NCBI GenBank assembly: GCA_956465555.1 | Contig: OY101119.1 | Coordinates: 310,001 to 374,000, forward strand | Direction of reading: 5' to 3' | Origin: Nitzschia sp. pyKryTriq1 | Taxonomy: Eukaryota > Bacillariophyta > Bacillariophyceae > Bacillariales > Bacillariaceae | Length of the DNA stretch: 64,000 nt | Shown here: positions 30,613 to 53,094 of the stretch, in pieces | Numbering within the stretch: position 1 is the stretch's first letter | How the letters are laid out: each line of letters opens with the position of its first letter | Program-made: the position numbers and the translations under genes | The notes under the pieces: generated by a model | What the model saw: the letters and a program-made list of their open reading frames with translations, nothing else | Told to the model about the DNA's origin: nothing | Database searches by the model: none

Positions 30613-30663
30613 ATGGGTTGGTTATGGAATGCTGCCTTTGGTGGTGGCAGAAATAACAACAAC

Positions 30664-30698
<35 letters not shown>

Positions 30699-31854
30699 GA
30701 GTAACAAGAATAAACGAGCTTCCATGACGAAACAAACATCGGTGCGAATGCAGCAATTTACGACGGCAGGAAAAACTGGCTCGTTGATCTTGAGCAAAGA
30801 AGATCTCGAGGCGGTCCAAATTCAAAGCAAGACGGAACGAACCCGACGAAAAATCGAACATCAACGCAAGAATCATCAAGATGAATTGCAAGTTATGCAG
30901 AATTTGAAACAAATGTTGATTCAACAATTGGATCAGAAATTGGAAACGGAACTCGACGATATTTCAGTGTATAAACAAGTCATACAAGAAGCATTTTTAG
31001 AAGAATCCCTCTTGCTGGCCGATCCGGGAGATGGAATGAAGGAAGCGACGTTATTCCAAGCATTGCACAAGTCGGAACTCAAGGACAAGATGCGAGTGCT
31101 CTTTCAACAACAGGCCAGTGATGAGCTCATGGAGATTTACAGGACATTGCCCAAATTCCAAGAGCAAATGGGAGAACGAGAAGCCAAAATGGTATCACTG
31201 GTCTTTCAAAAGGATGCTTTGGTGCAACAACGAAAAGAGCTCAATGAAACGATCGTCAGAATCCAAAAGGAAATGATACAAAAACTCGAAAAGGCGACCC
31301 AAGAGCAATTCCAAAAACGATACGAGGCGATCCGAGATGGAAATGCCGCTGAAGATGGGGATCTTGTCACTAGACGGCAGCAATTTACAGAGAAAAGCTA
31401 CTCGGCTCGAATACTCGGTGCATCGTCACCAGAAAAGACGACGGAACGCAAGACACCATCAACATCATCATTATCAGCAGCAGCAGCAGGGATAGTGGTA
31501 GAAGGAGGTCTCAAAGATGTCATCCTGGAGGAAGACAGTCCGAAGGAGGCTCATATTGGTGAAGTTAAGAGACGGACAGGTTCCAGTCGAAGTCCTGTGC
31601 GACCAACAACAGCAAGCCGAAGTAGGAGTCCGGTTCCATCTACTACCGGTACTGGAAACACGCGTCGAGGGGAAGTAGGAACTTTCAACAACACGACCGC
31701 AACCACCACCACCCGAGTCAGAGCTCGGCCTGCACCTCCTTCCGCCCGATTAGCGGCCGATCGGGTACAAAGTGGGGCAGCAGCGGCCGCGGCACGGCGG
31801 GCCGCCGGTGAAAGGGCTCGTCAACAACAAGCCAATGGGCCATCAGCCAATTAA
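30613..31854 (+). CDS. Coiled-coil protein, function unknown
   Basis: A single exon of 413 aa. The N-terminus (MGWLWNAAFGGG) is hydrophobic and starts Met-Gly, so N-myristoylation is possible (inference). An Asn run of about 15 follows, encoded by AAC/AAT repeats. Residues about 55-240 are strongly helical and charged, with heptad-like patterns of Leu, Gln and Lys, consistent with a coiled coil. The C-terminal third is a disordered Ser/Thr/Pro/Arg region with RSRSPV-type motifs, ending in an Ala/Arg-rich helix. I recognise no catalytic motif. The helical core looks a little like ESCRT-III or membrane-scaffold proteins in composition only, and I do not assign it there. It converges on the next gene with about 140 bp between stops. 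Confidence 0.72.
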
Positions 31855-31996: not shown

Positions 31997-34900
31997 CTAG
32001 ATTTGCCGGTGCCCCATGTTCTGTAGCATTCCCACAATCATGGAAGCTTCCTTGGGACTCTGAGCGATCAAATGTAAATCTCGCAAGTGGGAAAACTGAA
32101 CCTCGGCTACCAAGGTCTCCAGACCCGTTCTCAGTGTCTCGGAATAGCTTGGACTGGTCTCTGGGGTCGTCGATAAGCTCAGTGCCAGAGCTTGAAGCTC
32201 TGAGTGTTTTGCTAGCACCATGCTAGATCGATAACAACTCCTCAGCATGGTCTTGGTTTCGGATAAAATGTCGGGACTCGAGACTAAATAATCATCTTCG
32301 TCGTCCTTTCCGTTTGAAGCAGCAATGCTCGTAGACAAGGGGGGCACGGTCAGAATGATACAGGGAGCTGCCAGCGAACCAAATTTCTCGGGACCTATCA
32401 TGAGTGCGTTTCCCATGGCACATCGAACGGGGCCGTATGGAGTCTTGGATATTGTTGGCACCTCCGAGAGCTCATAGCGCAAATCGGAGCCTCCCAATCG
32501 CAACAAAGGATCGCCGAAGACAGTTCCTTCGAGATGACAACATTCATTCGTCCAGCAGACAATTCCACGTGCTTCGGCGGGATGATCAAATTCCCAAACG
32601 TTACCCGTCGAAACGACAAAGGAACAGTCGCGATGATCTCCACAATTGACAGCAAAGGTAATTTCACCTGCTGTTTTGATGTTGACGATGATTGGATCGG
32701 GAATGTCTGGATCATTTTCATCATTTCGGCTTGAATTCACCATTTGTTGGACTTGAGCTTCCAATGCATTGACTTTTTCGTTTGCGGAGCTGGATTTTCC
32801 ATTCTTTGCCTTGGCGGCATTTAAACTTCGTTGTTCCTTTATGATTTTCTTTTTCAACGTGAGTAACTCTCGTTTCATATCATTCGCAACGTCATACCTA
32901 CGATTGCTAACGGCCTCGGCCAAATCAGCCTTCATGATTTCTTCTTCCTCCTTCATGTCTTCCAAGCTGGGAAATTCAGGACGCATGGCCTCGAGTTCTT
33001 GCAGTAAGTCGTCCAAGTGGAACGCCCGTAGGTAGTTCTTGTCATCGAATGCTTGTGATTGCTGTCGTTTCCGCCGTCGTACTTCGATATCCAGAGCCCC
33101 CAGAGAATCGACGAATACGTCGGGACGATTGGCAATCCCAATCAATTTGATGAAATCTCGGGTGGCCATGGTGTTGGCAGCTTTCACAACAGCCTTGGGA
33201 AGACCGTGTCCCATCAGAGCATACAATTCAGATCGGCGTTGTGGAATGATCGTAGAGCAAGCGTCCTGTCTCCAGGGTTCCATCAACTCGGCAAATTCGA
33301 TAGCATCGTGTGCCGCAGGACATCCACTGCCCGTGATGAATTTGTTGATTTCCCCAAAAAGTTGGGCTGTGGCCCTGAAGTCGAGGGGGTGGACTTCGAT
33401 CGTTGCTTCTTCAAAGCGTCGAGAGCCAGTAGTTTCTCGGGAAATGTGCGAGACAGACGACATTCCATCTGCAGAGCTTCGAGCTTCAATTAGAAGGATT
33501 TTTACTTGAGCAGCATTCAATAGGAAAGAAATGAACTTTTCCAATCCTTCTTGGGCAGCCTTGTAGTGAAATTGACGGCAGTCAAGAATCAAGAGTACTC
33601 TCGTTTCTTCCAACTCAACCTCGATTCGTTCATGGCATTCAAGCAAAGCATCATCTTCGTCCCATATGTTGGTCTGTGCCTTTCTCAACATATTCGTACA
33701 AAGACATAGATCCCCGTAGAGAGAGTCGGCTTCGGGCTCGATGCCATCCGGAACTGGCAACCAAAAGATGTTGTCAACCTCAAAGCTAGCGCGGCGTCTC
33801 CAGACATAGTGACACACAGCGGTCAGGATGCTGTCTTTTCCAGTCCCAGCAGGACCAGCGATGCGGACCATATCGTCGACCCGAAGGGCTCCCAGAATAT
33901 CGTACATGTCTACCTCTCGGCCGAGAAAGTGTTCAGGGATGGGAGGAATTCTTGACAGGGTTGTATCTTGTTCGCCTTTACCATCGCTTGAGTCATACAT
34001 CGACTTTGGCGGAACTGGCTGAGTGAAAAAGACAGAAATATTATGGTAAGGGTCGTTTTCAGCTCGTTCAGGAAGGATGTGGAAGCGCTCGTGCACCCGC
34101 CTGGTGAGGCGTGCGTGAGGGCTGCTGGTAGCAGCCGATCTGGCAATTTGAAAAGCGTGTTTCAGACTCCTTTTCTGTGCCAGCGATTGATAGAAACTTT
34201 GCACGAATTCCATTCCAACAAGATCGCGAAATCGATGATCCAGGTCGCAACAGACCACATGAGGGACACCAGCCTCCACAAATGTTTGTCCAATCGACTT
34301 GGCGTTACGTGAAGACACACAGACGACATGCAGACCACCGATCTTGGACGCGACCATTCGTTTCAATTCGTCGTGGGGTATCGACTGTATCGAACCGTAG
34401 CCATTCTCTAAAGTCAGCTGGTCCAAGGGACCGTTGCATGAAATATGAAGTACGTGGGCAAGTGGCTGCTTGAAAAATGTGGTAAATCGCTCCACAGTGG
34501 CAACCTCAACCTCGGTATCGATCTCCCCGGCCATTGCTTGTTTCAGGGCGTCTTGAATGAGTTGACTTTCGTGATCGGAATCAATCAGCGGGACTGCTTG
34601 ATTGGCTCCACTTTCTCGGTTCAGAATCGCCAAGGGGGTAGATTGAAAGACAACCAATCGATCATAGGGAGGTCCCTCCATGGGTGGCGACGAGTAAATT
34701 GTAGCAGGAGTAACAATCTCAATGGGTTCCTCGAGTCTTGTTGAAAGCATGTGTTTGCGAGATATTACGTGTGGAGGCCTCCTCCCTCGACGGACTGGAG
34801 GATTCTCGTCGTCTAGATCTGTAGGACTTGACGGTTCCGCATAGTCGGCATCAGCTGTCATGGCACTGACCACCGTCCCTGGTCCCTCGCTAAATCTACC

Positions 34901-36400
34901 AGACTCCGGCGGTGAGTCAATTTCAAAGTCGATATCTATCGAGGACATGCGGCCAACGTTGTTGGAAGGAGCTTGCTCGTAGAGTTTGGCGCAAGCAGAG
35001 CCGTTAGGATCGGAACTGAGAAGCAACTTCCGAATCGCCACAACAATAAAACGACGTTCGATCTTGTTCCTCCACAGTCCCGAAATCTCCTTGATGGTTG
35101 TATTCTCGTCCATCGCAGCGAGTAGCGCTCGGGCTCCTGCGTTTTGTATCAAGTTTTCTCCAAGTCCTAGAACCCGCAGCGAAGTGTTGCTTTCTAGCAT
35201 CTCAGCCAAGGCAATAGCTCCCACGTCACCAATAGCATTCCAGCCGAGATACAATCGCTCCATTGCTGTATATTCATTATTCTTGATCCCATCTGACAAG
35301 GCATGGATGCTCTCATTATTCAGATTATTCCCCTCTAAATTCAATATCCGAAGACTTCGATTCTTCTGAAGAAACGGCTCGATACCGGACTCGACATCGT
35401 CCAAATCCCGCAGGGTGTTATGTGATAGATTGATGGACCGGATACGCGTCAATCGATTGTGAAGAAAGGCGCTAAAGAGGGCCAGAGCCCCATTGCTGGA
35501 CAAACAATTCCGGGAGAAATCGAGTTTTTCCAACGTGCCGTTGGCTTGCAAAAATGGCCCCAAGGCATCTATCCCTTGATCCCCCACCTGATTGCTTCTC
35601 AAGTAAAGCTTGACGAGTGGAATATCTCGGGCTTGCTCCAACCCGGAAGCAATAATCCCCAGGTTGTCATCGTCTAGCTTGGAATTCTCCAGAATCAAAG
35701 CTGATAGGCTTGTATTCACCTTGAGACCCTCCGCGAGCGCTACAAAATCAACCTTTCGCATATGAATTCCACTCAATTCCAAAATAACAATCGTCTTTGA
35801 GTTTTGTTGAAGTCCCTCCACTGCCTTGTGCACTACAAAGAGAGGTTCATCGTCCTTGACCACAAAGTTGTTTGCATTTCGTAGTTCTGGCGGAGGAAAG
35901 GATTCTTTACTACGTTTGTGTGCTGCGTGGCTGCCGCCGGCTGGACGATGCTCATTGGAATCATCATTGTCCGAATCATCCTCCGGCAAAGGTCTAGACC
36001 GATTGTTTTTCCTTGACAAGTTATTGGACCGCTGCCTTCGAGGATCCATCGGCTCTCCCGCCAGTCGCTTAGCTTGATCCAATGTAAAGCAATTTGGCTT
36101 GACACAATATCCCTTGTATACTTGATAGGCTCCAGTTTCTTTATCGAGGACCGTCAGTAGTTCCCATTGGTTTCTTTTTTTGCCAAAGAGTCTAAAGGCT
36201 CGTTTTCGCGTCCGCGTCTTGGCGCAGAGTGGACAAAGTCCTCTTCGTTTGCAATAATCTTCCAATTCATCGCCTTCTAAACTCAAGCCGCCCCCCAACT
36301 TGACATTGTCAATATCCTGCAACGACTCGCGATGTTTCATTGGAGGTCGTTGTTGATGATCCATCGACATCCTCGTGATACTTTGTTGAGTAGTACTCAT
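31997..36400 (-). CDS. LRR-CHAT-STAND-macro protein 1
   Basis: A single exon. The first ATG is at 36400 (about 1467 aa); the frame is open a little upstream but without ATG. Modules in order: a Cys module at about 50-105 (C-x5-C-x2-C, then YC-x4-C); RI-type LRRs at about 185-465; and a disordered linker. Next is a CHAT/caspase-like fold at about 580-800 (VLHISCNG; later VSSRNAKSIGQTFVEAGV). The STAND-type P-loop NTPase starts at HFLGREVDMY, with Walker A GPAGTGKDS at 849-857 and Walker B LLILD. A paired-helix UVR-like segment lies at 1110-1195 and a macro domain at about 1240-1467 (IVCWTNECC, YGPVRCAMGNALMIGP). The CHAT His and Cys positions are Asn and Arg, and Walker A has GKDS in place of GK[S/T], so both active sites look weakened. 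It is probably cytosolic, since no signal or membrane span is seen. A sensor role is inferred. Confidence 0.88.
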   Translation of the reverse strand: MSTTQQSITRMSMDHQQRPPMKHRESLQDIDNVKLGGGLSLEGDELEDYCKRRGLCPLCAKTRTRKRAFRLFGKKRNQWELLTVLDKETGAYQVYKGYCVKPNCFTLDQAKRLAGEPMDPRRQRSNNLSRKNNRSRPLPEDDSDNDDSNEHRPAGGSHAAHKRSKESFPPPELRNANNFVVKDDEPLFVVHKAVEGLQQNSKTIVILELSGIHMRKVDFVALAEGLKVNTSLSALILENSKLDDDNLGIIASGLEQARDIPLVKLYLRSNQVGDQGIDALGPFLQANGTLEKLDFSRNCLSSNGALALFSAFLHNRLTRIRSINLSHNTLRDLDDVESGIEPFLQKNRSLRILNLEGNNLNNESIHALSDGIKNNEYTAMERLYLGWNAIGDVGAIALAEMLESNTSLRVLGLGENLIQNAGARALLAAMDENTTIKEISGLWRNKIERRFIVVAIRKLLLSSDPNGSACAKLYEQAPSNNVGRMSSIDIDFEIDSPPESGRFSEGPGTVVSAMTADADYAEPSSPTDLDDENPPVRRGRRPPHVISRKHMLSTRLEEPIEIVTPATIYSSPPMEGPPYDRLVVFQSTPLAILNRESGANQAVPLIDSDHESQLIQDALKQAMAGEIDTEVEVATVERFTTFFKQPLAHVLHISCNGPLDQLTLENGYGSIQSIPHDELKRMVASKIGGLHVVCVSSRNAKSIGQTFVEAGVPHVVCCDLDHRFRDLVGMEFVQSFYQSLAQKRSLKHAFQIARSAATSSPHARLTRRVHERFHILPERAENDPYHNISVFFTQPVPPKSMYDSSDGKGEQDTTLSRIPPIPEHFLGREVDMYDILGALRVDDMVRIAGPAGTGKDSILTAVCHYVWRRRASFEVDNIFWLPVPDGIEPEADSLYGDLCLCTNMLRKAQTNIWDEDDALLECHERIEVELEETRVLLILDCRQFHYKAAQEGLEKFISFLLNAAQVKILLIEARSSADGMSSVSHISRETTGSRRFEEATIEVHPLDFRATAQLFGEINKFITGSGCPAAHDAIEFAELMEPWRQDACSTIIPQRRSELYALMGHGLPKAVVKAANTMATRDFIKLIGIANRPDVFVDSLGALDIEVRRRKRQQSQAFDDKNYLRAFHLDDLLQELEAMRPEFPSLEDMKEEEEIMKADLAEAVSNRRYDVANDMKRELLTLKKKIIKEQRSLNAAKAKNGKSSSANEKVNALEAQVQQMVNSSRNDENDPDIPDPIIVNIKTAGEITFAVNCGDHRDCSFVVSTGNVWEFDHPAEARGIVCWTNECCHLEGTVFGDPLLRLGGSDLRYELSEVPTISKTPYGPVRCAMGNALMIGPEKFGSLAAPCIILTVPPLSTSIAASNGKDDEDDYLVSSPDILSETKTMLRSCYRSSMVLAKHSELQALALSLSTTPETSPSYSETLRTGLETLVAEVQFSHLRDLHLIAQSPKEASMIVGMLQNMGHRQI

Positions 36401-37562
36401 ATTATTATCAACAACAACAACAACAATACTATTCGATTGAGATGAAGGGTTGATTGATCGACGATGATTCGTGTCAAAGAATTCTTTAGTGTGGACCACC
36501 GGAGCTTCTTTTTCTTCTTGTCCGGGCGACTACTAGTAGTATTTCTTCGAAACACTCTACTACTCGTAGAGAGTAAGAACTAACTGTGAGACACCACCCC
36601 GCAATCAAGAATATATCGAAAGGCAACTCGCAAAAGCGTTTTGAGGGGTGTGGACACCAGCACCTCCTCCTCTATCACTTACGAGTACAAGTGTTTGGTA
36701 CTACAGTTCGTACTGTACCTTGCTCACTCGGTTCACTGGAGCACATCAGCATATGAAGGATCAACGAAGAAGGGAAAACAGCACAACCATACCGGTACTG
36801 GGTAATACTGGTACCAACATCGTTACCACCGCGCGCAAAACTGATCATCATCATCAACATCTTATTCTATCTGGCACAATAAACACAATAACAGCCAACA
36901 CAACAGTGACTCCGGTAGGCGCGCTAGCCCGCCAAAAATGGGCACTATTCTTTTGATGGCAGCGACATTCCAATTAGTGAATTTCAGTATACATTCATGA
37001 AGCTTACATAAGAGCTGTTCGGCGAGGATTTTCGTAATTACCCAAAATTGTCGCGCCGGTCGGTCAGAGCTCCATGTAGGAATGACTGATTAGATCCCAA
37101 TTGTGTGGGAAGGACAGACATTCGATCTACTTAACCGTCCGTGCGTCGTCCTCTACGCTATTATCAGCTTTGCATGATACTGTGCGCACGCGGGTCATCG
37201 CATCGCATGAATTATGACTGTTTTGGGAATTTTGGTGTTCGTGCGATGATCGAGCGTCGATCTTCGGAAGAAGTGAAAGGCCCTGCTCTGCTGCGCCGCC
37301 TGCCTAGCTACGAGTACATATGCACGCTGAAAAGAGTAATAAAGAGCAGGCGAGCGAGAGAGGTGCACCATCTGCATAAGAACCCTTCTTGTTTTGGTTG
37401 TGGAGAAATCATAATACAACATCGAGCGGCGTCTATTGCTCTGCTCTGCCCTGCTGTCGATCGAAGAATCATCATCCTTCGCGAAGCAACAACCGCCATT
37501 GTTTAGCTTAGTTGTAGTGCATTCGGTTGTTGGAAAGATCATCCAACAAAGAAATAAGCAGT
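36401..37562. promoter_or_regulatory. Shared divergent promoter region of two LRR-CHAT-STAND-macro genes
   Basis: About 1.16 kb between the two ATGs, so both promoters must lie here. It has scattered CTACTAG and TACCGGTAC palindromes. Open frames at 36648-36956 and 37141-37506 have no recognisable content and are not called. No TATA or initiator can be assigned with confidence. Confidence 0.55.
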
Positions 37563-40500
37563 ATGGCCTCTCAACCAATCACCTTTCTCGAGATTGACGG
37601 CAAGGTGTTGAGTGGGGAAGAATTCGAAGAGTACTGCAAGGATCATGGATTGTGTCGGCGATGTGCCAGGGTGAAAACCCACCGCCGTATCGTCAAAATG
37701 TTTGGCCGGGGCCGCAAGTGGGAACCCATGACGTTGCACGACGACATGACGGGGGAATACACCGTATACAAAGGATATTGTTTGCAAGCCACGTGCTACA
37801 CTCTGGGACAAGCCAAACGCATGTTGGGCGAAGGGGGTGGTGGTAGACGTAGCGGTGGTGGGGCGTCGCGTCGGCAGCGATTGGCAGCGCGTCTCAAGGG
37901 CAAAAATTCCGCCAAACGACCGTCGCGACGCAAACCAAGAGCCAACCCCGAGACGGGCAGTGTCATGAGTGGCATGGGTGCCGACGACGATGATGATGAC
38001 GTGTCGGTGGGATCCAATGTCTCGGGAATATCGCAAATGAGTGGACTGTCGGCCATGAGTGGCTTGAGCGGGATGAGCGGGATGAGTGGCTTTTCTCTGG
38101 GAGGCTTTCGAAGGCGGCGAAAAAGCAAACGAAGTTCCAGCGGAACCGCCTCGAGTGCTTCTTCAGTGTCGAGTATGGAGTCCATGGAAGACGACGATAT
38201 CACTGTCGATTCGACCATGACCAATGATGTCAACCCGATGGTGGACGAAGGAGAAGTCAATCCTATCGTCTCTCATCGTGTTGAACAACTCACTCTTTAT
38301 GACTACTTTACCGTCTTGGACTTGAGTAAGGTCGTCTTGCGGACGGAAGATCTCGAAGCTGTGGTCGGAGCTCTAGGGAAAGCCAAGACTTTGGAAAGTA
38401 TCACCATGGACAAGTGTAAATTGAGAGACGAGGGCGTGGAAAAGATCATGGAAGGAATCAAGGCAGGAAACCACGTCAATCTCAAAAAGTTGAGCCTGCG
38501 ACAAAACAACATGGGAAACAAGGGCGCAGAATCTCTCACCTTCCTTTTGGAAAATTCCTCCACGCTCGAAGAATTGGATGTCAGCGAAAACGCCATTAGC
38601 AGTCGAGGCGCAGCTGCAATACTGGGTGCTCTCAAAAAGAATCGAAAGTGTGCCTTGAATACTCTCAACCTTTCACAGAATGAGATCTGGGACCTGGACG
38701 ACGGCAGTTTCCTGGGTACCAATCGAACACTCAAGGTGTTGAACATGGATGGAAACTTTATGCATGATGAAGGTGCCGAACATATCTCCAATGCCATTGC
38801 TGGGAACAAGCACTCCATCATTGAAAAGCTCTACCTCGGGTGGAATGGTATCGCCGATGATGGAGCCACGGCACTGGCCAAAATGATGGAAGCCAACTCT
38901 ACTCTTCAAGTCCTGGGACTAGCGGAGAACGACATTAGCAACGCCGGGGCTCGGGCGCTGTTGTCGGCTTTAGCGATCAATACAAGCGTTCGAGAGATCA
39001 GTGGCTTGTACCACAATCAGATTGACCGAAAATTCATCATTGTCGCCATCAAGCGTTTGCTACATCGCTATGGTGAGCGAGGAGGAGCTCCTCAGATAAG
39101 ACTGGAAGGCGAAGACGAGGAAGAACAAAGGATGAGTGGTATGCCACAAGAAGCAAAGATGCCCGAAGGAGAATCCGACTCGGGCTCGGATGGGTCCACC
39201 AACTGGGCGGCGGCGATGTATTCGGAACCAGAACCCGCAGAAGTATCGCCAACCAGGAGAAGTAGCGCCGCTCTCGAAGCCATTGAAAACTGGGACTGGG
39301 GAACCTTTGGAATCGAAGACGAAATTGACAATCTAGAAAAACCCGCTGTGGCTTTACCGGCACCCATGGCCGATGTGGAGTCTGAGGACGAACTGGAGGA
39401 AAGCAAGCCGCCAACGGGACCAACTGGAACAACAATTAAAGCAAGTCGGATCTCAGTCTTTCGATCGGCTCCTTTGGCCTATTTCAATCGCCAAACATCG
39501 GAGCACCATGATGTGCCTCTTTTGGACTTTGACCAAGAAAAGGCGGCTCTCGATGATCTAGTCAAGGACAAGGATCTCGGGGCCAGCATCGAGATCATCC
39601 ATGAAATTGCTACTCAAGATCGACTCAAGGAATTCTTTTCGCGAGGTACTAGCCCCGTTCTCCACTTTTCCAGTCATGGGAACGCGGAATGTCTGGCGTT
39701 GGAAAATGGGTTCGGCTACATGCACGCATTGGATCCCAGCGAATTGCAACAATACGTGATGCTCAACCAAGGGACTACCAAGGTTGTCGTCGTTTCCTCC
39801 GTGCATGCTCGAAGCACTGCCAAAATCTTTTTGGACGCAGGGGTCAAACACGTCGTCTGCTGTGAACGAGAAGCAACCTTCCGCGACGAAGCTCCAGTCG
39901 AGTTCACCAAGGTGTTCTACCGTTCTCTGGCCAAGAACAAGACCCTTCAAGATGCCTTTGAGGATGGTTTGGAAGCTGTCAAGCGACATCCTTCGACAAC
40001 GACCCTGAAGAAGTCCACAGATCGATTCCAGCTCCTTCCAAAACAGCCCGCAAATTCATCGTACCACAAGATCAATGTACTTTTCCAAGGCTCGTTGCCC
40101 AAGAAACCAGTCCTACCACCGCCAGGAGATACTTCCATGTTGCCACCTCTTCCCAACCAATTCGTGGGGCGAGAAGTGGACATGTACGAAGTCCTCGAGT
40201 CGCTCCGTGTGGATGACGTGATCCGTGTTGGCGGTGCAGATGGAAGCGGCAAGGCCACCCTCCTCTCCGCCGTCAGTCACTACATTCTGGCCAGACCCAC
40301 ATCGTTTGGAATTGGAGAGATATACTGGCTACCGGCACCCCCGGACATTTATCCCGAGGAAGATACTTGTTACGGAGACCTTTGTCAAGTTATGGATCTG
40401 TTGGTGGAGGCTGAGGACGATATTTGGGACGAAGAACTTTATGCCGAGTGCCGGGAACGCATCATGATCGAATTGGAAGATCAAAAAACGATTTTGATCA

Positions 40501-42029
40501 TTGATGGTCGTATTTTCGACACAGAAGCCGCGGGGGAGAACCTGGAACGTTTCTTGTCCCATTTGTTAAATGAAGTCAGCGTCAAGATCATCTTGTTGAC
40601 GGCGCAAGAAGGAAGCTCTAGAGCCAAGCGATCGAGATCAGAAGAGACCATGATCACCGTGGGACCTCTCGACTTCAAGGCGTCGTCTTTGTTATTTGGT
40701 GATTCGTGTCCCCACGTTTCTCCCGACGGCAACGCCATGGTCCATACCCCCGATGCGTTTGCGAACTTTATGGTACCTCCCTCTGTGAAAAAACAAGGTG
40801 CGGATCTTAACAAGGCGCTCTCACGTCGACAACAAGAACTCTACGACCGTATGGGCAAGGGAAATCCCAGGGATATCATCGCAACGGCAGCCGCCATCTC
40901 TGCAGCAGACCTAGTTTCCATGCTTCGATTTGCGCAACGTCCCGAAGTGCAGGTTGAGTCTGCAGAAGTCCTGAAACACGAGCTTGCCAAGCGAACGTCT
41001 CAACTAGAAAAGGCGATCAAAGGCAAGAACTTTTTGCGAGCTCGGGATTTGGCGGAAACCGTGGAAGAACTAGAGTTTCTAAAGTCCAGATATCCCAGTA
41101 TGGATGATCTTTTGTCCAAAGAGAAAGATCTCAAGAAGGAATTTTCAGAACTGTTGAAAGCCCGCAAGTACGACGATGCCAACAAGGTGAAGCGCAAGAT
41201 TCTAGCCTTGAAGAAAGACATTATGAAAGAGAAATTTGCCAAGCCCAAAGGCGCTGGTACGGTGGTTGCCTCTGCCAGGCTCCAACAACTTCAAGCCAAG
41301 ATGGACGAAATGATGGCCCAAGCCAATAAAGTTTCTCTCAGCGATGAAGACAAGGCGGACGAGACCTTTGCCATTCCGCAAGAAAATAACAATGTATGTC
41401 GACTACATATTTCAAAGGGCGAGATCATCTCTTACAAATACAGCGGGGGGCTGAGTGGCATTATTTGTTGGACCAACGAAAGTTGCGCTTTCTCAGGGTA
41501 TGCCACGGGGGAAAAGATCCTGAAAGCGGGGGGCGACAATCTCGAGGAAGACATTGAATTGATCGAGCCGGTTGCCGAAACCAAATGGGGACCCGCCCGG
41601 ATCGCAACGGGAGAGGCCGAAATCGTGGGGCCGAGGTCCTATCACAACCTGGCGGCGCGTTACGTGGTCATGGCCGTCCCTATTCTATCGCCAGCAAATG
41701 ACGACGAGGAATGGGATGGCGAAAATACCGATGAAGATGCGCTTCATGTATTGGACACGGGCCTACGAACATGCTACCGATCGAGTTTCCGATTGGTCAA
41801 GAATACAGGAATGGAAGGTGTTGGTGTACCCACTGTTACAACCAAAGAGGGTGGCAAGGTCTATGAGCGAACGCTCAGAATTGGCCTTCAGACCGTGATT
41901 GAGGAGGCCAAGACGACCAGGCTCAAATCCATTGACTACATCGCTTCGTCTGAAAAGGAAGCCAAGATCTTGATCAAAATGGCGCACACCATCGGCCTCG
42001 TGGTTGCCAAGGCGGAGGAAGAACCATAG
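37563..42029 (+). CDS. LRR-CHAT-STAND-macro protein 2
   Basis: A single exon of 1488 aa from the ATG at 37563, which has A at -3 and G at +4; the open frame upstream has no ATG. The modules match copy 1. The Cys module is at about 25-78 (YCKDHGLCRRC, YCLQATC) and is followed by a basic and a Met/Ser/Gly-rich linker. LRRs lie at about 240-500 and the CHAT fold at about 625-835 (VLHFSSHGNAE; VVVVSSVHARSTAKIFLDAG). The NTPase has Walker A GADGSGKAT at 891-899 and Walker B LIID at about 981. UVR-like helices are at 1140-1225 and the macro domain at about 1285-1488 (GIICWTNESC, KWGPARIATGEAEIVGP). This is the only copy that keeps the CHAT His (SHG), but the Cys position is Val. It is divergent from copy 1 and converges on the p47-like gene. 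Confidence 0.88.
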   Translation: MASQPITFLEIDGKVLSGEEFEEYCKDHGLCRRCARVKTHRRIVKMFGRGRKWEPMTLHDDMTGEYTVYKGYCLQATCYTLGQAKRMLGEGGGGRRSGGGASRRQRLAARLKGKNSAKRPSRRKPRANPETGSVMSGMGADDDDDDVSVGSNVSGISQMSGLSAMSGLSGMSGMSGFSLGGFRRRRKSKRSSSGTASSASSVSSMESMEDDDITVDSTMTNDVNPMVDEGEVNPIVSHRVEQLTLYDYFTVLDLSKVVLRTEDLEAVVGALGKAKTLESITMDKCKLRDEGVEKIMEGIKAGNHVNLKKLSLRQNNMGNKGAESLTFLLENSSTLEELDVSENAISSRGAAAILGALKKNRKCALNTLNLSQNEIWDLDDGSFLGTNRTLKVLNMDGNFMHDEGAEHISNAIAGNKHSIIEKLYLGWNGIADDGATALAKMMEANSTLQVLGLAENDISNAGARALLSALAINTSVREISGLYHNQIDRKFIIVAIKRLLHRYGERGGAPQIRLEGEDEEEQRMSGMPQEAKMPEGESDSGSDGSTNWAAAMYSEPEPAEVSPTRRSSAALEAIENWDWGTFGIEDEIDNLEKPAVALPAPMADVESEDELEESKPPTGPTGTTIKASRISVFRSAPLAYFNRQTSEHHDVPLLDFDQEKAALDDLVKDKDLGASIEIIHEIATQDRLKEFFSRGTSPVLHFSSHGNAECLALENGFGYMHALDPSELQQYVMLNQGTTKVVVVSSVHARSTAKIFLDAGVKHVVCCEREATFRDEAPVEFTKVFYRSLAKNKTLQDAFEDGLEAVKRHPSTTTLKKSTDRFQLLPKQPANSSYHKINVLFQGSLPKKPVLPPPGDTSMLPPLPNQFVGREVDMYEVLESLRVDDVIRVGGADGSGKATLLSAVSHYILARPTSFGIGEIYWLPAPPDIYPEEDTCYGDLCQVMDLLVEAEDDIWDEELYAECRERIMIELEDQKTILIIDGRIFDTEAAGENLERFLSHLLNEVSVKIILLTAQEGSSRAKRSRSEETMITVGPLDFKASSLLFGDSCPHVSPDGNAMVHTPDAFANFMVPPSVKKQGADLNKALSRRQQELYDRMGKGNPRDIIATAAAISAADLVSMLRFAQRPEVQVESAEVLKHELAKRTSQLEKAIKGKNFLRARDLAETVEELEFLKSRYPSMDDLLSKEKDLKKEFSELLKARKYDDANKVKRKILALKKDIMKEKFAKPKGAGTVVASARLQQLQAKMDEMMAQANKVSLSDEDKADETFAIPQENNNVCRLHISKGEIISYKYSGGLSGIICWTNESCAFSGYATGEKILKAGGDNLEEDIELIEPVAETKWGPARIATGEAEIVGPRSYHNLAARYVVMAVPILSPANDDEEWDGENTDEDALHVLDTGLRTCYRSSFRLVKNTGMEGVGVPTVTTKEGGKVYERTLRIGLQTVIEEAKTTRLKSIDYIASSEKEAKILIKMAHTIGLVVAKAEEEP

Positions 42030-42140
42030 GGTGGGGGATTCTTACTGATATGCGACAGTAATGAGTTAAAGTGAAACAAGAACAAATACTAGTTTCTGTA
42101 GAAAATAGGCGAAATAGAAGTGTCGTATCAGAAATCATTA

Positions 42141-43013
42141 TTATACTTTCTTTATCTGTACTTGGGCCCCTTTGAGTCCCGCCGCTTCTACTGTTGCCTG
42201 AAAGTCTTCCAGTGGTTTGGGTGGAAAGCCCGCAATCAGTTGAAAAATACTAGAAGAGTCTTCTAGCAACGGCACAACGTGAGCCGCTAGCTGCAAAACT
42301 GGAACATCCAAATTGATCTTGAGAACCTTGCGTTTGCCGTTAGGCAGCCGCACTGCAATAGAAGTTGTGGGCCGGCTTTCGTCCACAGGCGCAGCCTCCG
42401 GAAGACTAGAGGGATCCACAGTACTCCCAGTCACAGCCACACTATTTCCCAGAGTAGCACCCGCTCCCGAAAAGGATCGAAAGGTCTCGACGTACTCTTC
42501 TTGACGCTTGTCAACAAGCCCCACGGAAATATTTCCTCCTTCGCTGTCCTCCATGAGTTCGGCAGGGGTTCGTCCCATAGCTAGGGATCGCAAAAAGTCC
42601 GCATTGGCAGGATCGTCCAATCTTCGATACGGTCCATCGTCTACCACAAACCCTTCGCGATACATGACGATCGTTCGTCTGATTTGACTGGACTCGTCGC
42701 TCCCGGCTTGCTCGGCCAGTTGAAAGACGGAATCGACAGGGGGCCCTCCATCGTCACTATCGTCATGAGTGGGCTCTACGGCTAGGCCACTATTATATTG
42801 ATGACACGGAAAGAGAATAGGCGGCGTGAGTCGAAATCAGGTCTCTACAGTACTACCAGCATGCTCGTCCAGGCCGGTCGTCGACCGACCAGCAACAATA
42901 ACGCACCTCCCGCCACCACGTGAATCAATGCCTCCGACGAAGCGGTTGTTGGTTTCCTCATCCGAGGAATCGTCGTCTTTGCGACCGCTGAATAAACCGT
43001 GAACATTGGCCAT
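42141..43013 (-). CDS. p47/Shp1-type UBX cofactor of p97/Cdc48
   Basis: Two exons, 43013-42907 and 42789-42141, with a 117-bp intron (GTGCGT...TAATAG); about 251 aa. The N-terminus has the p47 signature NNRFVGGIDSRGGG, which splicing continues as S-G-L-A-V. The SEP domain at about 72-140 shows IVMYREGFVVDDGPYRRL and NADFLRSLAMGRTPAEL. The C-terminal UBX domain at about 176-251 shows the usual beta-grasp pattern (SIAVRLPNGKRKVLKI). Known family role: an adaptor that brings the AAA ATPase Cdc48/p97 to membranes for homotypic fusion and protein extraction. The N-terminal UBA domain of animal p47 is absent, so ubiquitin binding may be lost. The intron and its splice sites are inferred from reading frame and motif continuity. 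Confidence 0.92.
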
Positions 43014-43908
43014 TATAAGAGAAGTAAGATTTGAGGATACAGCGGGTGGTATTTGGTATTGCAAAAGCACAAGCAATTAGGCGGTAAAACTACAGTAAAG
43101 GACGCGAGGCAGAGAGGAAGCCCCTTCTGACTTATTCTCACCATCACCGACCATGGCCGCGAGGCTTCATTTTGCGTCTGGCTTTCTTTTTGGTCTTTGG
43201 TCTGCGGGAAAAGTATTTACCCCCCAGCCTTTGAATCTAAATTGCAATGAAATTTGAGTCTATGAATCTATTTTGATGACTCAGGGGTTTCTTCGAATGA
43301 ATAGAGCCAAAGAGAAGACGATGGAATCAATCCAAGAATCGATATTTGTGACTCAAATCATCGGTCCGGCGTCCGGTCGAAGGTCGGTCGAAGGCCGGAC
43401 GAGATTCGTCCGTCCGTCATTACGTTTAGTCCATTCTTCTACCTACTGTACCGTATGCGTACCTTGAAGACGAGCTTTGCGGCGGCGATCTTATTCGTTT
43501 TATGTCAGTTGGAAAATAAGAATGTTCAAAATGGCATTGCCCCTAAGTAATTTCCGTTTGCTGCTGTTCTGGCGCGTCTTTGATATATGCCTATCGGCCC
43601 CGGATCTCACAAAGGTCCAGTGAGAATCCAGAACCAAAGAGGAGAAGCTCTGTTTCTTTTCTTCGAAGAATCCCTTGAAGAAAGATCAAGATAAAAAGTA
43701 GCCGAAAGAACCACGCAGCATCTTGTCATTGTGTTTGTTGGTATATCTTTCATCCAGTTTACGTAGTAGTGGTCGTTCTCTGATATCTGAAACATCCATC
43801 ACATCTACAGTCCCAAAGTTTTAGCTGCTGTCGCCCGGATTGAACGAGATAGCAAAAAGGATTCTTCAGAACAAAGCCCAAACATTATTTGAAAACCAGA
43901 TCCTTACC
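43014..43908. other. Divergent intergenic region, no clear gene
   Basis: Contains the p47-like promoter side. A CCGG-rich stretch near 43363-43400 has GTCCGG and CCGGAC in inverted order. No gene seen. Confidence 0.5.
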
Positions 43909-44154
43909 ATGACAAATTGCCTTCCTCCACAAACAAGCCATCCTTTGAGAACGATCGATACCAATGTACAGATGTTGGTGTCCACTTTCCAGCAAACCGC
44001 ACTCGTCGATCTTCCTATCAAAAACAAGCGGGACAAGGCATCTTCTGCTGTTCTTTTACATCGCCGGTCTCATAGAGCCTTTTATGACTTGCCCATCGAT
44101 CCATCACCGGAAATCGAAGCGGCACTTCGAGCCAGCAAACGAGCAAAGAAGTAG
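43909..44154 (+). CDS. Hypothetical small basic protein
   Basis: 81 aa from the ATG at 43909; the frame is open upstream but without ATG. The composition is protein-like, and the end is ASKRAKK, which resembles a nuclear localisation signal. The middle holds LLHRRSHRAFYDLPIDPSPE. No family is recognised. It lies between convergent large genes; support is only the open frame and composition. Confidence 0.38.
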   Translation: MTNCLPPQTSHPLRTIDTNVQMLVSTFQQTALVDLPIKNKRDKASSAVLLHRRSHRAFYDLPIDPSPEIEAALRASKRAKK

Positions 44155-44467
44155 CTTCAATCTTCAGAGGCGTCGTCGTGCGTGGTACCATCCAGCTCAA
44201 AAAGACACTCAACACTTGAGGCGAACAAATTGAGCGATGGATGCATGCGAAGAAGCCACTGGGGGAAGCATTTTGCTTTCTCCCATCATCATACATACGA
44301 ACGTATAACGTACATACGTGGACTCGGTAGATAATTTCTGTATTTCTTCATAATTTGACACTTTTATCATTTATATTTACGTTTCCCCATTGAGGTCATC
44401 ATCTGTACCACAACTCTACTACCTACTAGTCCCCATCCCTCATAGCCACCAAGAAAGATCATGATCA
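44155..44467. other. Intergenic spacer
   Basis: A 3' flank shared by the small ORF and copy 3 of the LRR-CHAT-STAND-macro family. It is AT-rich with ACGTAC repeats near 44295-44318. No gene seen. Confidence 0.5.
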
Positions 44468-47400
44468 TCATGACATGGTCAAACCCATGTCCAGCGCCAT
44501 GGCAATGAGCTTGGTCGATTCGTCTTCGTCCTTGGCAATAATATGCAGATTGTTTAGATCTGAATGCTTGGCCTCTTCGATCAAGATCTTCAATCCCATC
44601 AACAAGGTTTGCTCATAGGTGTCTCCCCCCACCTTGGACGTCAGAGTCGGAAAGGCCACGGACTGCACTTGAGAGTGCTTGGCAAGAATCAAACCAGAGC
44701 GAATGCAAGACCGAAGCATAATCTTAACGTAGTGCAGACTGTCTTCGTCGTCTGCCGCAATGGCATCAATTCCCGCCGGCGATAGAGGTCCTACCGCCAA
44801 GATGACGCAGTGCACTTGTAGTTCTTCGTAGTTGCCAGGTCCAACAATGACGGCATTTCCCGTGCCGCACTTGGCTAGTCCCCATTTTGTTCTTGTAATT
44901 CCTGGCAGAGACGCAATGTCTCGTTCCAAGCTATGGCCCCCGTATTCGATCAGTTCACGGCCATTCTCATGGAGCTGCATGTCGCAACACTCGTTGGTCC
45001 AGCAGATGACGGCGCCAAGATCATTTCCAGGATCAAAGTGAACGACAGAACCGGGATAAATGGCTACCTCACAGTGGTGATAGGCTGAACCCAAAGAAAA
45101 GGAGGCCGCACTGACTTCGGGGGTAGTCAGATTGTCCAAGCTACTAAAAGACGAGTGAGCAATCTTCATGATGGAGTTCATTTGACGCTGTAGTTCCTCG
45201 ATCTGATCCTTGGCCGCTTGGGTAGCGCTAGAAGCTCGCTTCTCGTTCATAATGACCTTTTTGAGGGTCAAGATTTCACGCTTGATATTGTTTCCGGCCG
45301 CATACTGCTTCTTGGACATGGCCAAATTTAACTTTCGCTGGAGCTCTTGTTCTTTGGCCTGGAGATCCTGTAGACTTAGGAAATTCTTTCTTTGTGCTTC
45401 AATTTCCGACAGGACTTGTTCCAGATCTGTCGCCCGAAGGTAGTTCTTGGATTTGACCGCCCTGTCCCGTTGCGTAGACCATCGCCCCAGCGCTGCTTCC
45501 AAGGACTTGTAAGAGTCGATTTGGACTTCAGGAGTGTTGGCCATTCCAATCAACTGGATAAAGGCGCTTGCCGGCATGTTCTTTCCAGCCTTGATGACAG
45601 CCAGAGGATTACCATTTCCCATTTGTTTCATCAAATGCGTCCTTCGGCTCGAAGAGAATTTGGCCTGATCCTGGATGACGGCCACTGAGGGCGGCACCAT
45701 GAGCGCGGCGAATTCATCGGGAGATTGGGCCGCAGGACACCCATTCGCCGTGATGAATCTTGAGACTTCCCCGAACAACAAGGCGGTGGACTTGAAGTCG
45801 ATTGGCTTGAGCTGGATAGTATCGTCTTCAACCTCCTCGTCCCCTTCGCTGGAAGACGAGATCAACAAGACCTTGACATTGACTTCTGGCTTGTTCAGAA
45901 GCTCCCCCAAAAAGAGTTCCAGATTTTCGGAAGCCACTTCAGTTGTGAATTTACGCGAATCAAAGGCAATCAATGCCCGAGTCGCTTCCAATTCAATCTG
46001 TATCCGGTCACTGACTTCCATCGTCTCTTCATCTTCAAACATGTCCCCACCCTGCATCATTCGATTGACCAGGTCACACAAATCCCCAAACAATGTATCT
46101 TCATCCGGTATTACTCCATGAGCGGGAGGCAACCAAAAGACCTCATCATAACCAAACATTTTGCGTCTTTGGTTCACGTAACGACACGTGGCAGCCACCA
46201 AAGACGACTTGCCACTGCCCTTGGGACCACCGATTCGAACTACATCATCAACTCGAAGAGCTTCCAATACCTCGTACATGTCCACTTCCCGCCCAATAAA
46301 ATGCTTTGGGAGACTGGGGAGGATGTTGGGCCGTTCCTCCTCGTCTTCATCATCTTCTCGAATGCCGATAGGCGGGACGGCTTGGGTATAAAAGATGGGT
46401 ACATCATGATAGGGATCGTCTTCGGGTTTTTGAGGCAACAAGACGTATCGATCGACATGCTTGGAGATTTCTTCGACACGCACAGCTTCTTGGGCCATGT
46501 AAAAGGCTTGCTTCAAGGATTTGTTGTCTGCCAATCCTCGGTACAGATTCCGAACAAATCCTGTAGCGGCCTTGTCTCGAAAGATTTCGGTATGATGGCA
46601 ACAGACCACATGTGGCACTCCCGCATCGACAAAGGCCTTTCCAATGCGACCCGAGTGAAAAGAATTGACCACCACTAGTTTCAGAGGACACGGTCCCGCA
46701 TTTTGAGCCTTGATCAAGTTGCGCAATTCTTCTGGCGCCATGGTTTCCATGTATCCGGCTCCATTTTCAAAGGCCAAATGCTCTGGGTGCCCGTAGCAGG
46801 AAAGATGCAAGACCCGACTGGTCCCTTGATCAAAAAAGGTTCGTACTCGATCGCTATGACCCGCTTCGACTTCCAATTCAATCTTGGCTCCCAACTTGTC
46901 AGCGGCTTCCAATGCTTTCTTCATGGCATGACGTTCATAATCAAAATCATGAAGAGGAACGGCATGATGCAAGGTCGTGTCTCGATTAAAGAAGGCGAGG
47001 GGAGCCGACTGAAAGACCATGATCCGATCAAAGTCCGTTTGAGGCTCTGGCATGGATTGAAAGGTAATTTGGGGTTTGGACCGACGACTAGGCGACGTTA
47101 CCGGAGGAGGAGCTCGCGAGACGGGAGCTGCTGCTTTGGCGGGAGTGGGAGCGTCTTCTTGCTGCTTGCGAGCGTTGACGGCTTGGCAACTTGGACAGTT
47201 ACAATCAGGTCCATGTTCCAGTTTCTTGTCAAAGTTCCCCAAGGGAACACCTGGATCATTCCGTTCGGCCATGGGAATTATTTTTCCATCTTGTCCCGGC
47301 GCAAAGAGTTTATCGGCCCAATCCAAGGACCCTTCCGACATTTCTTCGGGTGGAGGGAGTTGCGATCCCAAAGGTTCGGCCAAGGTGTCCATGGCCGACA

Positions 47401-49120
47401 AGGATTCTTCAAAGATCAAGTCCGAAGACGGATCGCTGGTACTCAAGTCCTTTCCATCCAGGGCTTCCACGTGCGACTGCAACAATCGTTTAATGGCAGC
47501 CACAATGAATTTCCGATCAATTTGATTGTGATACAATCCGGTAATTTCTCTCAAGCTTCCATTGGAAGCCAAGGACGACAAGAGCGCTCGTGCTCCCACA
47601 CTGGTAATATCATTCTCTCCCAGTCCCAAGGTGGTAAGAGAGTGGTTGGTTTCCAGCATTCTTGCCAACTGCATACATCCTTCATCACCAATCCCGTTCC
47701 ATCCCAAAAAGAGTCGTTGGAGGACACATCGTTTATTGGCTTTCATTCCCTTGGCAATCGCTTCGATGCCTTCATCATGAATAAAGTTTCCTTCAAGATT
47801 GATGAGTTCCAATGTTTGGTTGGTCGCAAAAAAGGTTCCATCGTCCGGATCCCAAATTTCATTGTGGGCAAAGTTCAACATGCGGAGTTTGCAGTTGCGA
47901 TTGTCCCGAAAGGCATGCAAGGTCGAAGCCGCACCCCGAGAACCAATTTGATTCTTACTCATGTCGAGTTCTTCCAGTGTCGAAGTGTTGGAGAACCAGG
48001 TTTGGAGTGAGACGGCACCTCGATTGCCCATGCGATTCGAGCGAAACGACAAACGTTTGAGAGGTGCAACACCCATTTCCGAAAGTCCTTGGCCCAAAAT
48101 TTCAATTTCATTGTCATTGAGTTTGCAGTTTTCCAAAATGAGTGTCTCCAAGGACGTGGCGACGCCCAATGAGTTGACCAATTCGGTAATATGATTGTGA
48201 TGCAGTCGTGTCGAACTCAAATCCAACATGGTACCCGCATTTTCTTGCAAGAGCTGTGCCAAACTGACACGTACATTGGAAGCACTGGTCATACTGGTCA
48301 TGGCCGACGCCACAGAGACGTCGTCATCGTCGCGTCGAATTTCAGATTTGAGAGGACCACCACCGCCGCCTGTCTGTCTGGAGGAGACGGACGACTTACT
48401 GGACGAAGTCTTACTGCCTCCTTTTCGCCTGGAAGAAGAAGCAGGACCACTGGTGCCGCTGGTGACGGAAGTGGAAAAGCCAGTCATGGAATCAAAGCTT
48501 CCCACTCCGCCCGCCATTCCTCCAGTTTTCTTTTTGCCACGACCTAAGAGCAATCGCGAGATTCCCTTGCGTTGCTTTCCCTTGGGTTCTTCATTCTGTC
48601 CTTCCACAAAGGCTGATTCTGGATCCTGTGCTACCGATCGAGTAGCACGAGCTGCACTCGCTAGAACAGCATCCGCCTCCGCATCAGTCATGTTGTTGGT
48701 GTTGGTGTTGTTGTTGCTGCTGCTTGGAGTTTTTGCTGGTTCTTCTTCGTCCGGCCCAATTTCTCCCAACAAACGCTGCGCTTGTTCCAGCGTAAAACAA
48801 CCTGGTTGGACACAATATCCTTTATACACAATGTACTCTTGATGGTTTCCTCCTCCCTGCTTGTTACCGCCACCGTTCTTCACTTTCATTCCAACCGTCA
48901 GAGGTTGCCATTGATTTTTCTTTTTCAATCGAAAGACCCGTTTGTGCGTTCTCGTTTGGGCACACAAGTTACACAATCCATGCTTTTTGCAATACTCTTC
49001 CAATTCTTCACCCCCCAAGGTCAATTGATCGTTCTTGTGAGGATCAATGATGGCCGCCATATCCATTCCTGCATCGCCCTCTTCATAGTACTCCTCGTCT
49101 TCCCCATTGTTGTCGGACAT
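44468..49120 (-). CDS. LRR-CHAT-STAND-macro protein 3
   Basis: A single exon of about 1550 aa from the first ATG at 49120. It starts with an acidic stretch, then the Cys module at about 44-108 (YCKKHGLCNLC, YCVQPGCF). Disordered Ser/Gly/Lys linkers follow, then RI-type LRRs at about 290-550. An extra CNCPSC motif sits at about 640 in the next linker. The CHAT fold is at about 695-890 (VLHLSCYGHPE; VVVNSFHSGRIGKAFVDAG). The NTPase begins HFIGREVDMY, with a textbook Walker A GGPKGSGKSS at about 964-973 and Walker B LIAFD at 1054. UVR-like helices lie at 1230-1300 and the macro domain at about 1350-1550. The CHAT His and Cys positions are Tyr and Phe. This copy alone has a canonical GKS Walker A, so it is the best candidate for active nucleotide binding. 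Confidence 0.88.
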   Translation of the reverse strand: MSDNNGEDEEYYEEGDAGMDMAAIIDPHKNDQLTLGGEELEEYCKKHGLCNLCAQTRTHKRVFRLKKKNQWQPLTVGMKVKNGGGNKQGGGNHQEYIVYKGYCVQPGCFTLEQAQRLLGEIGPDEEEPAKTPSSSNNNTNTNNMTDAEADAVLASAARATRSVAQDPESAFVEGQNEEPKGKQRKGISRLLLGRGKKKTGGMAGGVGSFDSMTGFSTSVTSGTSGPASSSRRKGGSKTSSSKSSVSSRQTGGGGGPLKSEIRRDDDDVSVASAMTSMTSASNVRVSLAQLLQENAGTMLDLSSTRLHHNHITELVNSLGVATSLETLILENCKLNDNEIEILGQGLSEMGVAPLKRLSFRSNRMGNRGAVSLQTWFSNTSTLEELDMSKNQIGSRGAASTLHAFRDNRNCKLRMLNFAHNEIWDPDDGTFFATNQTLELINLEGNFIHDEGIEAIAKGMKANKRCVLQRLFLGWNGIGDEGCMQLARMLETNHSLTTLGLGENDITSVGARALLSSLASNGSLREITGLYHNQIDRKFIVAAIKRLLQSHVEALDGKDLSTSDPSSDLIFEESLSAMDTLAEPLGSQLPPPEEMSEGSLDWADKLFAPGQDGKIIPMAERNDPGVPLGNFDKKLEHGPDCNCPSCQAVNARKQQEDAPTPAKAAAPVSRAPPPVTSPSRRSKPQITFQSMPEPQTDFDRIMVFQSAPLAFFNRDTTLHHAVPLHDFDYERHAMKKALEAADKLGAKIELEVEAGHSDRVRTFFDQGTSRVLHLSCYGHPEHLAFENGAGYMETMAPEELRNLIKAQNAGPCPLKLVVVNSFHSGRIGKAFVDAGVPHVVCCHHTEIFRDKAATGFVRNLYRGLADNKSLKQAFYMAQEAVRVEEISKHVDRYVLLPQKPEDDPYHDVPIFYTQAVPPIGIREDDEDEEERPNILPSLPKHFIGREVDMYEVLEALRVDDVVRIGGPKGSGKSSLVAATCRYVNQRRKMFGYDEVFWLPPAHGVIPDEDTLFGDLCDLVNRMMQGGDMFEDEETMEVSDRIQIELEATRALIAFDSRKFTTEVASENLELFLGELLNKPEVNVKVLLISSSSEGDEEVEDDTIQLKPIDFKSTALLFGEVSRFITANGCPAAQSPDEFAALMVPPSVAVIQDQAKFSSSRRTHLMKQMGNGNPLAVIKAGKNMPASAFIQLIGMANTPEVQIDSYKSLEAALGRWSTQRDRAVKSKNYLRATDLEQVLSEIEAQRKNFLSLQDLQAKEQELQRKLNLAMSKKQYAAGNNIKREILTLKKVIMNEKRASSATQAAKDQIEELQRQMNSIMKIAHSSFSSLDNLTTPEVSAASFSLGSAYHHCEVAIYPGSVVHFDPGNDLGAVICWTNECCDMQLHENGRELIEYGGHSLERDIASLPGITRTKWGLAKCGTGNAVIVGPGNYEELQVHCVILAVGPLSPAGIDAIAADDEDSLHYVKIMLRSCIRSGLILAKHSQVQSVAFPTLTSKVGGDTYEQTLLMGLKILIEEAKHSDLNNLHIIAKDEDESTKLIAMALDMGLTMS

Positions 49121-52468: not shown

Positions 52469-53094
52469 TTTTTGAGGGTGTGATCAATAGGAAATGACGT
52501 TTCTCTCCTAGATCTTGATCCCCATGGTTCGCAGTACAGGATTTCGTTCCGTGTGTTGTTGTTTCCCCTTCAATGCTTGTTTGAATACAAGTGCAATGCG
52601 TATGGTCGGTCGAGGATGTGATTGATGCCCTGTATCGTATGCTGGTCTGCGTTTTGTTATAATGTGCGGGATGCGGGGTATCGGTAATCACTACTGTAAA
52701 GTGATCATGAAAATTAAAACAGCTCTTTTAACGGATAACTAAGGAGGAATTAGTAGAGGAGAACAGTTCTCCAATTCCTCCAAGTCCACGATACGCGATA
52801 GCGCTAGTAGAATAATACAAAAATAAATAATACGCGATAGCGCTAGTAGAGTAATAATGAAAATAACGCGTGTTTCTACCGTAGTGGTCAGAAATATTAT
52901 TATCAACAATAATACGCGATAGCGCTAGTAGAGTAATAATGAAAATAACGCGTGTTTCTACCGTAGTGGTCAGAAATATTATTTTCAACAATAATACGCG
53001 ATAGCGCTAGTAGAGTAATAATGAAAATAACGCGTGGTGTTATTTCTTCCCGTGATAATGATATTAAAATACTATGTTAGTACAGTAGTTAGTT
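52469..53094. other. Left flank of the Crypton-like element
   Basis: Holds the promoter side of copy A, the probable left end of the transposon (52709-52734) and its 82-bp repeats. No gene seen. Confidence 0.55.
52792..53037. repeat. 82-bp tandem repeats
   Basis: Units starting TACGCGATAGCGCTAG begin at 52792 (shortened), 52831, 52913 and 52995. The two full units are 82 bp apart and nearly identical. Each full unit contains TTTCTACC...GGTCAGAAA, a loose inverted repeat similar to one in the right-hand foldback. They may be recombinase-binding sites (inference). Confidence 0.85.

Follow-up and report, generated by a model that had tools for sequence, protein, structure and literature searches.

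Caspase-like CHAT domains joined to NLR-type receptors have been described in fungi. According to the available text of two reports, some fungal NLRs carry a CHAT domain and adjoin gasdermin genes, and in P. anserina a TPR-bearing CHAT protease cleaves and activates gasdermin (PMC12881547, PMC10197012). In bacterial ternary conflict systems, the accessible part of one report describes inactive STANDs (iSTAND) and inactive caspase-like domains, interprets the latter as dominant-negative regulators or binders of peptides, and discusses decoy roles (PMC7159879). For diatoms, the portions available of two further reports mention, for Thalassiosira pseudonana, a TPR protein with an NB-ARC and an NTPase of the NACHT family (PMC5599023) and, for Pleurosigma pacificum, genes annotated as NLRC3 (PMC12803021). 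The idea that diatoms have NLR-like genes is thus, in general terms, already known.

The window analysed here is a stretch of 64,000 nucleotides from Nitzschia sp. pyKryTriq1 (contig OY101119.1). It contains three genes (P1, P2, and P3) with a common module order: Cys module, RI-type LRRs, CHAT, STAND NTPase, helical linker, and macro domain. A STAND-type fold and RI-type LRRs are shared with plant and animal NLRs (NB-ARC-LRR and NACHT-LRR); however, the LRRs of those are C-terminal, whereas the trio has them N-terminally and additionally bears CHAT and macro domains. Fungal CHAT NLRs have in common with the trio that a caspase-like CHAT is joined to an NLR-type receptor but, in the text available, carry WD40, TPR, or ANK repeats and are clustered with gasdermin genes. 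A gasdermin search of the diatom genome gave no match, which is a weak negative (one control genome matched, below the cut-off). Coral and human TPR-CHAT proteins resemble the trio in having a eukaryotic CHAT, N-terminal repeats, and tandem copies, but these repeats are TPR rather than LRR, and neither STAND nor macro domains are mentioned in the accessible part of the report (PMC12314368). The bacterial ternary systems likewise retain dead enzyme domains in putative defence proteins, yet, as far as the available text goes, in another architecture with MoxR and vWA partners.

Among the matches listed in the open-licence PMC literature (titles and abstract starts), no protein with the module order of P1–P3 is described, which agrees with the sequence-only reading of this locus, and the combination with a pseudo-CHAT and a pseudo-macro domain appears to be new. 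The architecture unites a bacterial-type conflict core with LRRs and a macro domain. The trio and its paralogues are candidates for NLR-type receptors and caspase-like death proteases in unicellular algae.

Gene Organisation and N-Terminal Modules

P1 (31997..36400, minus strand, 1467 amino acids), P2 (37563..42029, plus strand, 1488 amino acids), and P3 (44468..49120, minus strand, 1550 amino acids) each form one open frame from ATG to stop, with intergenic gaps of 1162 bases between P1 and P2 and 2438 bases between P2 and P3. Three intronless genes had been proposed at exactly these positions. Identity to P3 is 39% for P1 and 40% for P2. All comparisons within the genome refer to this one genome (40.65 Mb, 20 contigs), in which the trio lies on contig C5. 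Its single PsbO match scores 508 bits with a photosystem II chain of the PDB, and as the leading entries are presumably diatom chains, this agrees with a diatom origin. The predicted order of LRR, CHAT, STAND, and macro modules was borne out by profiles and structure comparison: LRR_6, CHAT, and nSTAND1 were matched in all three proteins (some below cut-off) and Macro in two of three.

The Cys module (CxxC ... CxxxxC) lies at 36053..36301 in P1 (minus strand), 37599..37832 in P2 (plus strand), and 48761..49021 in P3 (minus strand), and a Pfam search of the three proteins returned no match for it. One CxxC and one CxxxxC pair are invariant among four proteins, and a genome search at E<=0.01 gave five copies of the module. 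Since the fifth copy sits in a repeat protein on contig C15 (L012:2154-6500; large, ARM-like by eye), the module is also found outside the CHAT-STAND family.

RI-type LRRs follow at 35015..35833 in P1 (minus strand; Pfam LRR_6, E 9.5e-12), 38268..39068 in P2 (plus strand; E 1.2e-19), and 47474..48274 in P3 (minus strand; E 6.2e-19). In a PDB search, those of P3 matched ribonuclease inhibitor and NLRP chains. The trio had been interpreted as diatom NLR-like sensors. A STAND core with LRRs fits this interpretation, but the LRRs of all three proteins lie N-terminal of CHAT and STAND, against the effector-NOD-LRR order.

The CHAT Domain and Its Lost Dyad

The CHAT domain is located at 33956..34666 in P1 (minus strand; Pfam E 6.4e-5), 39441..40148 in P2 (plus strand; E 1.3e-5), and 46331..47032 in P3 (minus strand; E 5e-6). 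P2 and P3 score over the curated cut-off, and P1 is one bit under. An AlphaFold2 model of the CHAT-STAND part of P3, built from seven alignment rows of which two are parts of one gene, reached a pLDDT of 80.8 and a pTM of 0.78. As the structure comparison had been expected to yield, the model resembles SAVED-CHAT and STAND-type NTPases in Foldseek. Rank 1 was the SAVED-CHAT filament 8tl0 (five chains, best E 1.7e-10), aligned over about 201 columns with an rmsd of 2.6. The CHAT fold is thus recognised by Pfam in all three proteins and in P3 also by the 8tl0 match.

The dyad positions were compared with those of three paralogues from contigs C15, C3, and C12 and of three Chloroflexota proteins (L024, L025, and L026), of which L025 and L026 are near copies, so that the bacterial rows are worth about two. 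The His and Cys columns read N656 and R698 in P1, H705 and V747 in P2, and Y776 and F821 in P3, as against H and C in all six other proteins. Hence, the Cys is replaced in all three trio members and the His in two of them. In a CHAT profile of the three intact paralogues, both dyad residues align with their counterparts in the solved CHAT structure 8tl0. Thirty-eight CHAT columns are invariant in the six dyad-bearing proteins, and P1 retains 23, P2 29, and P3 28 of these; four are kept by no trio member, the dyad Cys being one of them. The H- and C-region patterns noted earlier are therefore present as motif regions, but the catalytic dyad is absent. With the dyad lost, none of P1–P3 should be a normal CHAT peptidase, and their CHAT domains should, judged from these residues, be pseudo-enzymes.

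It is very improbable that CHAT is still active through a nucleophile at another position, for instance a Cys from an HVVCC stretch that is present in all three trio proteins. The same stretch also occurs in the C3 and C12 paralogues, both of which have the normal dyad; at this place C15 has HVVCA, and the three bacterial proteins have HVVAV. This variation, together with the presence of HVVCC beside an intact dyad, indicates that its Cys is not the usual nucleophile. In P1 and P3, the His is additionally missing.

Conservation of the Three Genes

Over the whole proteins, pN is 0.42–0.43 versus a pS of 0.78–0.80. By domain, pN amounts to 0.37–0.43 in CHAT, 0.37–0.38 in STAND, 0.42–0.49 in the macro domain, and 0.50–0.58 in the two linkers, with a pS of 0.67–0.86 over all domains. 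A ratio of the two is not quoted, as synonymous changes have reached saturation or nearly so (dS is beyond estimation); the amino acid sequence stays conserved while the synonymous sites are scrambled. As the pN of CHAT is near that of STAND and below that of the linkers, the dead CHAT domain has been kept: it is retained under constraint at the protein level despite the loss of the dyad. Several active-site residues have gone together in the trio, as would be the case in decaying genes that are heading to pseudogenes. However, three frames of 4.4–4.65 kb remain open, the excess of pS over pN speaks against decay, and CHAT is constrained about as much as STAND. Decay is therefore scarcely conceivable.

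The STAND NTPase and the Helical Linker

The STAND NTPase extends over 33080..33934 in P1 (minus strand; Walker A GPAGTGKD; Pfam nSTAND1 E 6.6e-5), 40149..40985 in P2 (plus strand; GADGSGKA; NACHT E 0.012, nSTAND1 E 0.014), and 45488..46330 in P3 (minus strand; GPKGSGKS, with a GxP motif; nSTAND1 E 1.4e-4, and NLR and AAA+ matches in Foldseek); all three nSTAND1 matches are below the Pfam cut-off. After SAVED-CHAT, the Foldseek search with the P3 CHAT-STAND model gave the plant NLR RPP1 (E 2.8e-8), for which a TM of 0.26 and an rmsd of 19.9 mean that the match supports the NTPase part and not the overall layout. Other plant resistosomes and CED-4 came up among non-STAND AAA+ proteins. GRE[VAL]DMY before the P-loop and GxP after it occur in all six diatom CHAT-STAND genes, and GRExE-like and GxP sequences are what we take to be STAND motifs. 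In a genome scan, nSTAND1 marked 19 places; the same profile matched in all 14 control genomes (over the cut-off in three), and generic P-loops therefore probably account for the weaker of these places.

All three trio proteins have the Walker A Lys and the Walker B Asp. A Ser or Thr after the Lys is present only in P3 (GKD in P1, GKA in P2), and a sensor-type Arg is absent from P2 and P3. Given these gaps, switching by hydrolysis is uncertain.

The linker between STAND and macro domain covers 32738..33079 in P1 (minus strand), 40986..41315 in P2 (plus strand), and 45164..45487 in P3 (minus strand). It had been called UVR-like. The region is indeed helical in the predicted model of P3, with which the P1 and P2 linkers are aligned, but a Pfam search at E<=1 detected UVR in none of the three.

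The Macro Domain

The macro-like C-terminus of P1 (32000..32653, minus strand) was recognised via alignment with P2 and P3 and has no Pfam or NCBIfam macro match of its own. The degenerate macro domain of P2 (41370..42026, plus strand) was matched by NCBIfam PRK00431 (E 8e-6) and by Pfam Macro (E 0.076), and that of P3 (44471..45097, minus strand) by Pfam Macro (E 2.8e-4), by PRK00431 (E 1.5e-4), by the trio profile, and by Foldseek with a low-confidence model. The NCBIfam matches are far under the models' cut-offs; with Pfam Macro, both proteins were below the cut-off in the protein search, and P3 exceeded it when the genome was scanned.

A profile of the three C-terminal sequences retrieved GDAP2 first from the PDB (E 2.1e-4) and also MACROD2 (E 6.1e-4). 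At E up to 10, 13 of its 15 matches were macrodomains, reaching from GDAP2 to TTHA0132 (E 1.3), and the other two were NOC2 and biotin synthase; GDAP2, 8rsm, and TTHA0132 were presumed to be macrodomains in this count. Macrodomains also made up 42 of the best 50 Foldseek matches of an AlphaFold model built from three rows, with SPX entries at ranks 1–6, 8, and 9. As this model is poor (pLDDT 53.6), its Foldseek result is taken as supporting. Profiles and model together support a macro fold for the C-termini of P1–P3.

The motifs NAAN and GGGGV are presumably the ADP-ribose-binding and catalytic loops of macro domains. A resident macro protein encoded on contig C9 reads NAANEQCLGGGGVDG in this region, where the aligned sequence is CWTNECCDMQLHENG in P3, CWTNECCHLEGTVFG in P1, and CWTNESCAFSGYATG in P2. 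In all three, NAAN reads CWTN and GGGGVDG is gone, so that neither the Gly loop nor the first Asn remains, whereas the C9 protein keeps both motifs; this loop comparison rests on that one resident protein. A second resident macro protein, on C8, shows neither NAAN nor GGGG in these columns; to judge from an NPAN stretch elsewhere in its sequence, it is probably misaligned there. The macro domain of P3 is related in sequence to the C9 protein (pairwise E 8e-12; E 0.0036 in the genome search), so the macro domain of the trio may derive from a resident macro gene.

Since the NAAN and GGGG residues are lost, the link to ADP-ribose signalling that had been drawn for these genes is unsupported; binding of ADP-ribose as such, though conceivable, has nothing in its favour here. 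In the earlier version of the interpretation, the trio would be ADP-ribose sensors by virtue of the macro domain and would have a working CHAT effector. The supported macro fold agrees with this; however, the loops are lost in all three proteins and retained in the C9 protein, the CHAT Cys is missing throughout, and a search for PARP-family proteins found no match in this genome (a weak negative; no control genome gave one). It is quite unlikely to hold.

Paralogues, Bacterial Relatives, and History

Six CHAT-STAND genes, all six candidates by protein similarity, were found in the genome: the trio without the dyad and three genes that have it. The C15 paralogue (L009:4139-7644) encodes a Cys module, CHAT with dyad, STAND, and helices and has one apparent intron; the two exons that were read gave neither an LRR nor a macro match. 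A stop within its match had suggested a broken gene, and this was rejected. This stop is part of a GTAAGT splice donor, and beyond a TAG acceptor the reading frame resumes in the next exon (by eye), so the interruption appears to be an ordinary intron. The C3 paralogue (L010:3237-7409) is an LRR-CHAT-STAND protein of 1390 amino acids with an intact dyad, in which the Walker A Lys is replaced by Arg. In the C12 paralogue (L011:2061-5009), CHAT with the dyad was recognised by similarity (a Pfam search did not find CHAT at E<=1), and it has weak P-loop matches and a different C-terminus. By eye, this C-terminal end is Trp-rich and possibly membrane-bound. Neither P1 nor the C12 gene was picked up when the genome was scanned with the CHAT profile, and both were tied in by protein similarity. 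Below the cut-off, the profile also matched L023:3338-7917 on contig C6 (20.4 bits), which from its sequence we take to be a probable separase.

A scan of genome contigs for relatives yielded three among 44 stretches, all from Chloroflexota. The proteins L024, L025, and L026 have CHAT followed by STAND, as in the trio, and P3 matches L025 with an E of 2e-21 (96 of 319 positions identical) over CHAT and the P-loop. Unlike the trio, they have an N-terminal EAD7, C-terminal TPRs, and an intact dyad in all three, and no LRR or macro match; P1–P3 in turn gave no Pfam match to EAD or TPR at E<=1. In sequence, the CHAT-STAND core of the trio thus resembles these bacterial EAD7-CHAT-STAND-TPR proteins. 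Two scans of viral contigs (IMG/VR), with 12 and 160 pattern matches, revealed no confirmed relative, and a PADLOC search gave only weak matches, the best with an E of 0.0011.

The trio forms one group in a tree built from nine CHAT domains, with values (87/88) that fall short of the starred level. A split that does reach it (96/95) separates the trio and C15 from C3, C12, and the bacteria. The CHAT of C3 is nearest to the bacterial ones (84/87). Because C15, with its dyad, groups with the trio, the simplest story would be descent from an active CHAT-STAND ancestor, with LRRs and the macro domain gained and the dyad lost. Nine rows are too few to tell the direction of any transfer.

How the Proteins May Work

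With active-site residues missing from both CHAT and macro domains, P1–P3 look like signalling scaffolds or decoys and not like enzymes. We tentatively favour the reading, to which we give slightly under an even chance, that they are intracellular STAND proteins of an NLR-like type in which both CHAT and macro domain are pseudo-enzymes, and which are proposed to act on the intact paralogues. STAND proteins switch and assemble. The N-terminal Cys-LRR part would sense a ligand or an altered partner, and the STAND module, going by its family, would switch and oligomerise. The assembled pseudo-CHAT might recruit, restrain, or compete with the intact CHAT of the C15, C3, and C12 proteins, and as sensors or brakes the trio would meet these active paralogues through CHAT-CHAT contacts. 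The degenerate macro domain, its loop residues being lost, could serve as a binding module or decoy and not as a hydrolase. A partnership with the intact paralogues, which sit on other contigs, is a guess. The six-gene set is small and countable, and it predicts sensors or brakes among the genes without the dyad versus executioners among those with it.

A different role is possible, if doubtful: P1–P3 might be house-keeping LRR-CHAT-STAND scaffolds for the control of cell cycle, stress, or cell death without pathogen recognition. The trio consists of just three copies, which are old (dS beyond estimation), and is not a large, fast-evolving family. In addition, the LRRs are 43–51% identical, no less than CHAT, STAND, or macro domain. 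Separase is a CHAT-fold protein of the cell cycle, and a separase-like gene is also present in this genome. However, caspase-like domains joined to STAND or NLR receptors are described in bacterial and fungal systems of cell death or defence, as far as the available text of those reports extends.

If the trio are NLR-like pseudo-enzymes that act on the intact paralogues, as favoured here, they could be part of a sensor-helper NLR network in a unicellular alga, in which LRR receptors with dead CHAT and decoy macro domains would regulate the C15, C3, and C12 executioners. Such a network, drawn by analogy, can be likened to cFLIP and caspase-8 and to the sensor and helper NLRs of plants, on a bacterial-type CHAT-STAND core; in this complete form it is rather unlikely.

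Surroundings of the Trio

Next to P1, an open reading frame on the plus strand (window positions 30613-31854) has a weak EcsC match (E 4.9e-4, below cut-off); the two are convergent, and 142 bases separate their stops. A BEACH protein of 2957 amino acids is encoded in a single open frame at 18189-27062 (plus strand), and a 7tm_3 protein (class C GPCR type, E 1e-42) at 61438-63126 (minus strand). Two minisatellites were observed at an open reading frame of 1183 amino acids (53095-56646): three copies of an 82-nt unit lie beside it (52811-53056), and four copies at a spacing of 75–84 nt lie inside it (53918-54254).
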